From positions 4,908,017 to 4,972,016 of the forward strand of contig NZ_JQML01000001.1 of NCBI RefSeq assembly GCF_000744705.1: 64,000 nt of DNA, read 5' to 3'. The notes below the pieces were generated by a model. It saw nothing but the letters and a program-made list of their open reading frames with translations, did no database searches and was not told where the DNA came from. Below are positions 16,285 through 20,000 of the stretch, one piece after another. Origin of the DNA: Streptacidiphilus albus JL83 (GTDB taxonomy: Bacteria; Actinomycetota; Actinomycetes; Streptomycetales; Streptomycetaceae). Numbering within the stretch: position 1 is the first letter of the stretch; each line of letters starts with the position of its first letter. Made by a program: the position numbers and the translations under genes.

Positions 16285-17049
16285 ATGGACGAGAGCAGCG
16301 GCGGGATCAGGACCTGGCGGGCATACGCGGGGGACAGCGTGCTGCTGGACGGCTTCCACGCGTTGAAGCACGCGCTGCGCTTCGGCGCCGAGGTCCGGAC
16401 GGTGCTGACCAGCGACGGCGCCGGGGTCGCCGTGCTGGCCCGGGAACTGGCGCCGGACGTCGCCGAGCGGATCGCCGAGCTGGCGGTGGAGGTCCCGGCG
16501 GTGGCGCTGCGCGAGCTCGTCCCGAGGCTGCACCCCACCGGCATCGCCGCACTCGCCGTCCGCCCCTCGCGGGGGCGCAACCTCGCGGTGCTGGGCGCGC
16601 AACCGCGCCGGACCCCGGTCGTGGTCCTGGACAACCCGCGCAACCTGGGCAATATCGGCGCCGTGGTCCGGCTCGCGGCCGGCTTCGGCGCGACCGGCGT
16701 GGTCACCACCGGCGACACCGATCCCTGGCACCCGACCGTGGTCCGGGCGGGTGCGGGACTCCACTTCGCCACGGCGGTCGAGCAGCTGACGCTGGAGCAG
16801 TTGCCCTCGGGGCCGCTGTACGCGCTGGACCCGGAGGGCGAGGACATCCGGGCCGTGGCTTTCCCCGACAACGCGCTGCTCGCCTTCGGTTCGGAACGCC
16901 ACGGCCTCTCACCGGAGCTGCGGGCGCGGGCCGACCGACTGGTGGCGATCCCGATGCAGCCCCAGGTCTCCAGCTTCAACCTGGCCACCAGCGTGGGGAT
17001 GGGACTGTTCCACTGGATGTCCGCGCGGGCCGACGGAAGCCATTCGTAG
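16285..17049 (+). CDS. SpoU/TrmH-family RNA 2'-O-methyltransferase
   Basis: 254 residues. All three SPOUT knot motifs are visible: NPRNLGNIGAVVRLAAGFG (motif 1, Asn and Arg in catalysis), FGSERHGLS (motif 2) and IPMQPQVSSFNLATSVGM (motif 3). The enzyme transfers a methyl group from S-adenosylmethionine to a ribose 2'-OH of tRNA or rRNA. The N-terminal region (residues 1-105) is a small substrate-binding domain. The target nucleotide cannot be deduced. The gene appears to have a leaderless start and ends 53 bp before a 33-bp palindrome. Confidence 0.9.
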   Translation: MDESSGGIRTWRAYAGDSVLLDGFHALKHALRFGAEVRTVLTSDGAGVAVLARELAPDVAERIAELAVEVPAVALRELVPRLHPTGIAALAVRPSRGRNLAVLGAQPRRTPVVVLDNPRNLGNIGAVVRLAAGFGATGVVTTGDTDPWHPTVVRAGAGLHFATAVEQLTLEQLPSGPLYALDPEGEDIRAVAFPDNALLAFGSERHGLSPELRARADRLVAIPMQPQVSSFNLATSVGMGLFHWMSARADGSHS

Positions 17050-17101
17050 CCATTCCCACCTGCGTGATGCCCGGTGCCGGGGGCGGACTCCGGCACGGGA
17101 C

Positions 17102-17134
17102 GGGCTATGCCTCGTTTGAAACGAGGCATAGCCC
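17102..17134. repeat. 33-bp perfect palindrome (copy 1 of a repeated element)
   Basis: Sixteen-base arms (17102-17117 and 17119-17134) complement perfectly around a single G. The core CTCGTTTGAAACGAG is identical to the core of the palindrome at 17794-17822. It lies between the convergent methyltransferase and BRO-like genes and could serve as a bidirectional terminator, but its second copy lies inside a coding sequence. Confidence 0.85.
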
Positions 17135-17164
17135 CTCACCTCAGGTTGCAACCAGGGCTCGCGG

Positions 17165-18016
17165 TCAGGGCAGCGGGACGCCCATCGCCTTCAGCTCGTG
17201 CAGCAGCGTGGCGATCTCCCGAGCCGTTCCCTCCAACCGCATCGTTCCCACGGTCACGGTCACGGTCATCCGTCCGCCAGAGGGGGACGAGCAGGCAGCG
17301 GGGGTCTCGGGCTCGCGTGGAGCGCCGAGCCGCCTGACGACGTCCACGAAGCGGATGCTGCCGCAGGGACGGATGCCCTTGCTGCCCCGGATGCCGACCC
17401 GACGCAGCTCCGGGCAGCGGTAGAACGGGCCGAAGGGCGGGCCGCTGTCCTCACCCTTGTTCGGAAAGACCACATCTGTCTGACCGTGGAGGCAGTGGAC
17501 GCTGCCGTCGGAGAGGACGCGGAAGTCGACATCCTCGATGCCGTCGATGCGCATGACCACGTCGAGCGGTTGGTCGACAGCCTCGGTGAGCGTCTCGGCC
17601 ATGCGCCGGCGCTGCTCGTCGAGGTCGGTGTCCCCACGCCGGAGGGAGGGGAGCAACTCGCTGGTGACCCACTGCTGGAACGGCTTGGCGGAGGGCTTCC
17701 GGGACCGCATGATCAGCGTGTACAGGCCGGACTCGCTGATCAGGTTGAGGGTCTGGTTGCCTCGGGCGTAGCCATTCCGAGCTGGCCTTTCGTCGTATGG
17801 CTCGTTTGAAACGAGCCATACGCTACGCATATCGAGGACCCTGCTCTCTCCGTTCTGGAGCACCCTGACAGCGTCGGTCGCATTCTGACGTCCCAGGATT
17901 CGGCAGACGTCGAGCGTGGCGAACCACGGCTCGCCGTCGATCATCACGACGCGGATCGGCTGCCCGGTGACCGGGAAGGCCGAGCGGGTCAGGGTGGGTT
18001 GTTCGGTGTGTGGCAT
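17165..18016 (-). CDS. BRO-N / phage antirepressor-like protein
   Basis: 283 residues. Residues 20-120 form a BRO-N type DNA-binding domain (VVMIDGEPWFATLDVCRILG, then LNLISESGLYTLIMRSRKP and FQQWVTSELLPSLRRG). The C-terminal part is not a recognised antirepressor domain. Within the domain, residues 67-84 look like an insertion, and the DNA encoding this stretch carries the palindrome 17794-17822. The start codon lies in one arm of a 12-bp inverted repeat (18011-18054), suggesting autoregulation; GAGAGGGA gives a ribosome site. Such genes come from phages or mobile elements but are also scattered singly in Streptomyces chromosomes. The function is unknown. Confidence 0.75.
   Translation of the reverse strand: MPHTEQPTLTRSAFPVTGQPIRVVMIDGEPWFATLDVCRILGRQNATDAVRVLQNGESRVLDMRSVWLVSNEPYDERPARNGYARGNQTLNLISESGLYTLIMRSRKPSAKPFQQWVTSELLPSLRRGDTDLDEQRRRMAETLTEAVDQPLDVVMRIDGIEDVDFRVLSDGSVHCLHGQTDVVFPNKGEDSGPPFGPFYRCPELRRVGIRGSKGIRPCGSIRFVDVVRRLGAPREPETPAACSSPSGGRMTVTVTVGTMRLEGTAREIATLLHELKAMGVPLP
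17794..17822. repeat. 29-bp perfect palindrome inside the BRO-like gene (copy 2)
   Basis: Fourteen-base arms around a central G at 17808, with the 15-base core CTCGTTTGAAACGAG shared with 17102-17134. A GTAGCCATTCC 11-mer also recurs near both copies (17047 and 17768). It keeps the BRO-like reading frame open. Confidence 0.85.
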
Positions 18017-18173: not shown

Positions 18174-19895
18174 CTACTTCTTCGCGCCGCCGGTGATCAG
18201 CGAGGCTGCCGCCGCGATCAGGCACGCGGCGAGGGCGAACCAGAAGGCCACCGCCAGACCGTCCTTGAACGGGCCGGTGACCAGGTGCGGGAAGAAGCTG
18301 CGCCCGGTCAGGTAGGAGGCCTTGTCGGCCGGCAGGTTGTGCAGGATCTGGTTGCCGAGCAGCTGCTTCATCGGGTTGTAGCCGAGGAAGGCGGCGAACA
18401 GCACCGCCAGCGGCGGCAGGTGGGAGATCTGCGTGGCCGCTGCCGAGGGCACGCCCTGGGCGGTCAGGCCGCTGTACATGTCGCTCGGCAGGTGGGTGGC
18501 CAGACCGGCCACCATCAGGCTGAAGAACACGCCGATGGACAGCACCATCGCGGTGTTCTGGAAGGTCGCGGTCATGCCGGCGCCGACGCCGCGCTGGTTG
18601 GCCGGCAGCGAGTTCATGATCTGGACCCGGTTGGGCGAGGCGAAGAGGCCGGCGCCGATGCCGTTGAGGACCAGGATCAGCGCGAACGCCCAGTACGGGA
18701 AGTCCACCGGAAGCACCATCAGCAGGCCGAAGCTCAGGGCGTTGAGCAGGGCGCCGGCGACGGTGAACATCCGGGAGCCGTAGCGGTCCGAGAGCACCCC
18801 GGACAGCGGCGCGGCGACCAGCAGGCCGATGGTCAGCGGGATCATGTAGATGCCGGCCCAGAGCGGTGTCTGCTCGAAGCTGTAGCCGTGCAGCGGCAGC
18901 CAGATGCCCTGGAGCCAGATGATCAGGATGAACTGCAGCCCGCCCCGGCCGAGCGCGGCCAGCAGGCTGGCCAGGTTGCCGGCGGTGAACGCCTTGATCT
19001 TGAACAGGTCGAGGTGGAACAGCGGGTCCGTGACCCGGGTCTCGATCCAGCAGAAGAGCAGCAGCACGACCAGGCCGCCGATCAGCGCGGTGAGCACCCA
19101 GGGGTTGCCCCAGCCGGTGTCGCTGCTGCCGTAGGGCTGGATGCCGTAGGTGATGCCGACCAGGATGGAGATCAGGCCGACGGCGAAGGTGAGGTTGCCC
19201 CACCAGTCCATCTTGGCCCGGTGCCGGACGCTGGTGTCCTTGAGCTTGAGGTAGGCCCAGACCGTGCCGAAGATGCCGACCGGGACGGAGACCAGGAAGA
19301 TCCAGCGCCAGCCCACCGGGCCGAGCACGCCGCCGAGCATCAGGCCGATGAAGCTGCCGGCGATGCCGGCGATGACGTTGATGCCGAGCGCGGTGCCGCG
19401 CTGCTTGGCGGGGAAGGCGTCGGTGAGGATCGCGGTGGAGTTGGCGAAGATCAGCGCCCCGCCGATGCCCTGGACCACGCGCCAGCCGATCAGCCAGAGC
19501 GCGGCGGTGGCGCCGTGGCCGAAGGTGCAGGACAGGAAGATCGAGCAGATGGTGAACACGGCGAAGCCCATGTTGTACATCCGCACCCGGCCGAACATGT
19601 CGCCGAGCCGGCCGAAGGAGACCACCAGCACGGCGGTCACCACCATGAAGCCCATCATCATCCACAGCAGGTAGCTGGTGTTGTGGGGATCGAGGGGGTC
19701 CAGCTTGATGCCGTCGAAGATATTGGGCAGCGCGATCAGCACGATCGACTGATTGATCATCACCATCAGCATGCCGAGGGTGGTGTTCGACAGAGCGAGC
19801 CACTTGTAGTGAGGTCCGTGCGGACTGACGTGCTCAGATGGATCATGTGGAGCGGTTGCAGTGGATATGGGTGGTTTTGCGGTGTCGCCGGCCAT
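18174..19895 (-). CDS. MFS transporter, DHA2 (14-TM) family
   Basis: 573 residues with about fourteen hydrophobic segments. SFGRLGDMFGRVRMYNMGF is the conserved loop 2-3 motif, and the antiporter region is visible around RVVQGIGGALIFANSTAILTDAF. Probably exports a drug or metabolite by proton antiport. The ATG at 19895 is chosen because it begins MAGDTAKPP and has GAGG nine bases upstream; the open frame extends 21 codons further without better signals. No dedicated regulator is adjacent. An ene-reductase gene lies 105 bp upstream in the same direction, so the two could be co-transcribed. Confidence 0.88.
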   Translation of the reverse strand: MAGDTAKPPISTATAPHDPSEHVSPHGPHYKWLALSNTTLGMLMVMINQSIVLIALPNIFDGIKLDPLDPHNTSYLLWMMMGFMVVTAVLVVSFGRLGDMFGRVRMYNMGFAVFTICSIFLSCTFGHGATAALWLIGWRVVQGIGGALIFANSTAILTDAFPAKQRGTALGINVIAGIAGSFIGLMLGGVLGPVGWRWIFLVSVPVGIFGTVWAYLKLKDTSVRHRAKMDWWGNLTFAVGLISILVGITYGIQPYGSSDTGWGNPWVLTALIGGLVVLLLFCWIETRVTDPLFHLDLFKIKAFTAGNLASLLAALGRGGLQFILIIWLQGIWLPLHGYSFEQTPLWAGIYMIPLTIGLLVAAPLSGVLSDRYGSRMFTVAGALLNALSFGLLMVLPVDFPYWAFALILVLNGIGAGLFASPNRVQIMNSLPANQRGVGAGMTATFQNTAMVLSIGVFFSLMVAGLATHLPSDMYSGLTAQGVPSAAATQISHLPPLAVLFAAFLGYNPMKQLLGNQILHNLPADKASYLTGRSFFPHLVTGPFKDGLAVAFWFALAACLIAAAASLITGGAKK

Positions 19896-20000
19896 GTGGG
19901 AAGCCTCATTTCGGTGGTTGCTACCTGCAACTATCCCAGGACCGCTTGAGGTTGTCACGCGACCACTGACCGGCGACCGGGTTACGCGCGGGCGACGGAG

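Follow-up and report, generated by a model that had tools for sequence, protein, structure and literature searches.

A palindrome among the DNA-binding-domain codons of BRO-N genes covaries with the recognition helix and may be a self-encoded binding site

The window analysed here, a stretch of 64,000 nucleotides from Streptacidiphilus albus JL83, contains a BRO-N domain gene flanked by two other genes and carrying two related palindromes, one among its own codons and one just past its stop codon. The features of the locus are:

16285-17049: TrmH-like methyltransferase gene, the convergent neighbour (named from sequence reading and the list of open reading frames)
17045-17064, minus strand: tail of the downstream unit, CGCAGGTGGGAATGGCTACG (from alignment to loci L155 and L124)
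17065-17101, unstranded: GC-rich imperfect inverted repeat, terminator-like, between the downstream palindrome and its tail
17102-17134, unstranded: second palindrome, 33 bp, centred 49 nt past the stop codon, its inner core that of the intragenic one
17165-18016, minus strand: BRO-N domain protein gene, an 852-nt open reading frame of 283 aa whose C-terminal part is without a Pfam match
17764-17793, minus strand: tail segment 3' of the intragenic palindrome, holding GGAATGGCTACG (from repeat comparison and relatives)
17794-17822, unstranded: intragenic palindrome, 29 bp, in wing-loop codons, proposed self-encoded binding site (from repeat and palindrome analysis)
17858-17890, minus strand: recognition-helix segment RQNATDAVRVL, residues 43-53 (model helix 46-51 and family covariation)
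17894-17917, minus strand: first helix of the helix-turn-helix, residues 34-41 (AlphaFold model, block pLDDT 96-97)
18174-19958: MFS-transporter-like gene, the other neighbour (named in the same way as the first)

The protein matches Pfam Bro-N (PF02498) over residues 21-123 (E 2.1e-21; 76.8 bits against a cut-off of 25.6), and in the structures predicted for it and for a phage-type domain a helix-turn-helix is followed by a two-stranded wing. In these models the palindrome encodes a wing strand in the phage type (residues 46-53, after a recognition helix at 34-39) and, in the window protein, a wing loop modelled with low confidence; residues N45, T47 and D48 of the window protein occupy the three family positions that covary with the palindromic half-site. 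A fold search of the PDB returned no match at E<=0.001, with weak Ski/Dachshund-type matches, and a PDB sequence search returned three weak matches for the window protein and three for the profile of the phage A1 set, none of them convincing. The C-terminal part of the protein (17165-17500) carries the conserved Cys/His motifs HCLHG, YRCPEL and RPCG, which perhaps bind metal.

An earlier note on this DNA had described two perfect palindromes of 33 and 29 bp with a common core and a nearby 11-mer, one of them within the BRO-N domain, and this description holds. The palindromes GGGCTATGCCTCGTTTGAAACGAGGCATAGCCC (17102-17134) and CGTATGGCTCGTTTGAAACGAGCCATACG (17794-17822) are both odd, with one centre base, and the latter covers parts of residues 65-75, inside the Pfam match. 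With up to two mismatches, the 15-bp core occurs at these two sites only in the window (four strand matches against 0.02 expected, a number reached in 0 of 100 shuffles). A repeat comparison recovered a 25-bp pair between the two palindromes (92% identity) and an 18-bp direct repeat (89%; 17045-17062 and 17767-17784) containing the 11-mer, GTAGCCATTCC, which recurs because it is part of the tail of the palindrome unit. In the whole 9.9-Mb genome the core is present in these two copies, 690 bp apart, and nowhere else. The 15-bp core was found in none of the 13 other genomes of the genus, and a related core pattern was found in 5 of 31 related genomes, every time at the BRO locus only. In a scan of other bacteria with the 15-mer, the matches listed fell in unrelated-looking places. 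When second palindrome copies were sought within about 20 kb, 3 of 57 and 1 of 40 loci had a score reached by at most 1 of 100 controls.

BRO relatives are present in 13 of 14 genomes of the genus, the strain's own included, and, at E<=1e-20, in 52 of 297 genomes of the family. The suggestion that the palindrome adds about 18 residues (67-84) to the domain is contradicted by the alignment of these orthologues, in which the residues are generally present, the region is of equal length, and different palindromes occupy the same codon (GTAACCCTCATTTCAAATGAGGGTTAC in L127, CGTATGCCTCAGTCAGAGTGAGGCATACG in L128 and GATTACTCTCAGAAATTCTGAGAGTAATC in L171). Shorter BRO genes were found twice, in L164 and in one paralogue of L145. 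Since the core occupies two genomic places only and the orthologues are not shorter, the proposed analogy to the in-frame insertions known as Rickettsia palindromic elements fails as well. Several genomes of the genus carry tandem BRO paralogues with different palindromes (L134/L136, L135/L139, L137, L133), and in such pairs the palindrome is often degraded in one copy.

The palindrome recurs at a fixed place across a much wider set of genes. Among the 64 BRO genes found in Streptomycetaceae, 62 could be anchored; the best palindrome lies at the same codon in 43 of these, and at least 11 of 13 arm positions are paired at that codon in 34. A phylum-wide search found PF02498 in 20 of 296 genomes and, with 22 of 23 genes placed and the window gene not counted, at least 11 of 13 positions were paired within the domain in 13 of 22 hits, compared to 12 of 425 control windows. 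Genes on viral contigs have the palindrome at a constant distance from the end of the BRO-N domain, with a score of 11/13 or more in 34 of 68 genes of the phage A1 set (65 of 3301 null windows) and in 29 of 47 of the A2 set (51 of 2127). DinD-type genes have a palindrome, mostly even, at a fixed place of their own (25 of 46, versus 11 of 768 controls). Taking the best centre in a segment inflates pairing somewhat in these counts, and the null windows of the phylum-wide, A1, A2, DinD-type and held-out comparisons were searched identically. The redundancy filter had kept 68 of 80 A1 genes, 47 of 52 A2 genes (two further loci of 54 were excluded), 46 of 72 DinD-type genes and 252 of 399 in a further set; one scan of loci had taken in 40 of 51. 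The even DinD-type palindromes (L489-L560) vary in their inner part, whereas the outer part, CATTTT...AAAATG, is fairly constant.

The palindrome thus belongs to a large part of the BRO-N superfamily but not to the whole of it: half of the A1 phage genes score below 11/13 and, of the six named phages examined, Donkeykong (12 of 13), Ld17 (11), phi11 (10) and Paisley (10) have a palindrome, while P1201 and Donovan showed no clear one at the expected place. PMC4257102 reports that the BRO domain of phage P1201 ANT8 confers DNA binding.

Synonymous codons are chosen for the palindrome. In 180 canonical genes, 9.13 of 11 positions are paired on average, compared to 5.44 after synonymous codon shuffling, and the observed pairing is exceptional (p<=0.01) in 128 of the 180 genes, versus one or two at three shifted control places. 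Among the mismatches at k3-11, G.T (39) and A.C (33) reveal no strand asymmetry and thus no sign of an mRNA helix; an excess of G.T suspected in the first Streptomycetaceae set was gone in this larger one.

We then asked what the half-site follows. Corrected mutual information between helix positions 2, 4 and 5 and the DNA peaks at arm positions k4-k7, reaching up to 0.87 bit between helix and arm in the A2 group, compared to medians of -0.01 to 0.07 bit in the other DNA columns of the domain. High information is concentrated in the codons of the helix itself and of the palindrome; the scattered columns elsewhere are strongest for helix position 6. In phage-group genes with 45-55% domain identity, half-site similarity is 0.83 when all three residues are shared (38 pairs) and 0.34 when none is (1079 pairs), and even at 75-90% domain identity it is only 0.47 if none is shared (46 pairs). 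The relation extends across groups, with a similarity of 0.51 for shared residues versus 0.27 for none (0 of 2000 permutations), where the two groups compared differ in wing length and their palindromes encode non-equivalent segments. Individual pairings can be recognised too: in the A2 group most KYWxDL helices are accompanied by TCCGA and most RYWxDL helices by TACGA. Only genes with a palindrome of at least 7/9 and set spacings entered the training set and the two sets (90 and 38 genes) used for covariation. As judged from these comparisons, the half-site follows three recognition-helix residues and not overall relatedness.

Helix positions 2, 4 and 5 had been selected on the first data and were then kept fixed, and the prediction was set before the final two scans, which gave a held-out set of 68 new genes with no more than 80% identity to earlier ones. 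A palindrome (at least 7/9) is present in 44 of the 68, versus 22 of 340 control places, and covariation was assessed on these 44. Half-site similarity is 0.79 when all three residues are shared (247 pairs, 32 loci) and 0.26 when none is, a difference reached in 0 of 2000 permutations. Among the held-out genes, TCG stands at k6-k4 in 18 of 20 with an N..D helix and in 1 of 24 others; in the training set the counts are 25 of 33 and 1 of 111. The window gene, which was excluded from the code table, fits this rule, its N45 and D48 being accompanied by TCG at k6-k4 of the intragenic palindrome.

Recombination between alleles could be followed in E. coli, where a BRO-N prophage gene matches 422 of 5426 genomes, with at least 80% of the gene covered in 114 of the 422 and only the second half matched in the others listed. 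By their first part, ten copies taken from 460 places fall into four types. Two belong to the reference type; in the other eight the domain is mostly 43-72% identical to the reference (L796 is lower further upstream), and past the domain identity jumps abruptly to mostly 92-100%. The palindromes of the four types score 11, 10, 9 and 9 of 13, two of them weak. On this alignment evidence E. coli prophage alleles swap a segment holding the helix and the palindrome, and since the exchanged part contains both, the two move together.

The second palindrome of the window belongs to a unit (17045-17134) of a kind often found 3' of the BRO stop codon in Streptomycetaceae, a palindrome followed by a tail that lies near the 3' end of the convergent neighbour; in the window the tail overlaps the stop codon (17047-17049) of the TrmH-like gene. 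Related genomes conserve the tail, which is about 20-26 nt long, lies 3' of the palindrome (minus strand) and includes the 11-mer. That of the downstream unit matches the sequences directly after the intragenic palindromes of L155 (19 of 20 nt) and L124 (20 of 21 columns), with an alignment score reached in 2 of 200 shuffles. In other Streptomycetaceae the downstream palindrome is usually of a different half-site class from the gene's own, and the window is unusual in that both share the same core. The unit is absent after several BRO genes, inverted after that of L177, and in L161 three palindromes of different classes stand in a row after the stop codon. These downstream units may act as second operators or in recombination, or may be left over from lost paralogues. 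Elsewhere the tail motif was a poor guide to BRO units, with a palindrome of at least 11/13 in 1 of 35 copies examined, that one being a BRO gene. The 16-mer GTTTCCGCAGGTCAGA, which is also the tail adjoining BRO palindromes, occurs, with at most one base differing, in each of the 26 Streptomycetaceae genomes tried (0 for the reversed control), often in clusters as inverted pairs (L831-L860) and in some loci beside a DnaA-box-like sequence (L845, L847, L859); the strain's own genome has it at eight places, four of them at 4.861-4.876 Mb.

The palindrome inside a BRO-N gene is, we believe, probably bound by the gene's own protein and would most likely serve it as an autoregulatory operator. In this large family of DNA-binding proteins from bacteria and phages, the recognised site thereby appears to lie within the code for the DNA-binding domain itself. 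The basis is comparative: the fixed place, the synonymous codon use, the half-site set by helix residues and the exchange in E. coli. Binding is strongly implied by the covariation of helix and half-site; binding itself, dimerisation and repression are what we infer from the sequences. A symmetric BRO-N dimer would use its helix-turn-helix to contact the palindrome, in codons directly past those for the recognition helix; these codons specify the wing strand in phage-type proteins and a flexible wing loop in those of Streptomycetaceae. When a helix residue changes, the palindrome would change too, and because helix and both arms would change together, protein and site would stay matched. Helix and site would be inherited or recombined as one short cassette, and the bound dimer would stop RNA polymerase about 200 nt into its own gene and also block transcription of any incoming copy with the same specificity. 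The window gene would have a matching second site just past its stop codon.

Of two hallmarks of an autoregulatory operator, a palindrome matched to the recognition helix is present and a site at or near the promoter generally is not. Second sites upstream, near promoters, show no enrichment (p<=0.05 in 7 of 181 genes, versus 9.1 expected), so that most genes have no site nearby other than the intragenic one; as ordinary autoregulation would favour promoter-near sites, this counts against an operator role. The A1 genes below 11/13, the two named phages with no clear palindrome, and the usual difference in half-site class between the downstream palindrome and the gene's own in other Streptomycetaceae also weigh against the reading proposed here. 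In two viral loci, near-copies of the gene's own palindrome lie upstream (L299 at -280 and L455 at -234 from the palindrome centre) and are perhaps promoter operators.

Other explanations account for parts of these observations. A mobile element of palindromic DNA inserted in frame, as an actinobacterial equivalent of the Rickettsia elements, would agree with the reading frame being kept and with a Streptomycetaceae unit that stands both within BRO genes and directly behind them, though some genes lack the downstream copy and L177 has it inverted. Copy number, absence of the core from the 13 other genomes of the genus, orthologue length and the confinement of the related pattern to BRO loci contradict it, and palindromes in phages and DinD-type genes also speak against it, making it extremely improbable. 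The earlier note's alternative, that the pair marks the ends of a mobile segment of about 0.7 kb, fares somewhat better. A role of the two palindrome-plus-tail units as segment ends, or as sites of recombination for exchanging BRO cassettes, is consistent with the same unit standing in the gene and after the stop codon, in the window and in many related genomes, and with the same-genus genome G011, in which BRO is lacking and the two neighbour genes are adjacent. However, the downstream unit is missing in several genomes, the E. coli exchange spans the first part of the gene and not this segment, no evidence of its present mobility was found in the window and related genomes, and the intragenic palindrome is better explained otherwise, so we regard this as unlikely.

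The palindrome could also be selected as an mRNA hairpin or terminator-like structure, as any DNA palindrome can fold as RNA and several Streptomycetaceae genes have G.T mismatches. The lack of strand asymmetry, the one-base centre of many copies and a half-site that tracks recognition-helix residues leave this with little credence. We give equally little to helix and wing covarying through contact within the protein, with the palindrome arising incidentally, from codon use or from template-switch copying of one arm from the other. The phage-type model, in which the palindrome-encoded strand follows the recognition helix, would suit such a contact, but synonymous codons favour pairing, the same code holds across groups even though in one of them the palindrome-encoded part is a loop eight residues later, and the core recurs in the window's second palindrome, which is non-coding. 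Contacts within the protein could in principle produce the covariation, but would explain neither palindromy nor synonymous choice nor the non-coding copy.

Going beyond binding of the palindrome by the protein it helps to encode, it is conceivable, though we hold it with some doubt, that BRO-N genes are self-addressed specificity cassettes, in which paired changes and recombination yield a lineage-specific mark of self and non-self. Such a mark would serve immunity or the control of incoming copies, per phage or host lineage. If self-binding is correct, the hypervariable wing of a common and poorly understood family would be explained, the binding sites of many BRO-N and DinD-type proteins could be read from their own gene sequence, naturally occurring data would become available on a protein-DNA recognition code, and the question of BRO-N targets would become directly testable.

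The window protein is a member of the BRO-N and phage antirepressor family (PF02498), and both palindrome and code are found in relatives annotated as antirepressors. In the open-licence literature, with subscription journals mostly outside its scope, we found neither a conserved palindrome within BRO-N genes nor a code linking helix to site described. Rickettsia palindromic elements are likewise palindromic DNA in frame within a gene but, unlike them, the BRO-N palindrome is not dispersed and represents no insertion relative to orthologues. ParB is also a DNA-binding protein with a palindromic site, parS, inside its own gene; parS is nearly invariant and repeated around the chromosome, whereas BRO-N sites are varied in sequence, change along with the protein and mostly occur once. 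LacI-family operators lie in regulatory regions near genes, whereas the BRO-N site lies within the codons of the DNA-binding domain. For the LacI family, PMC2978694 describes recognition residues correlated with operators across a large family.
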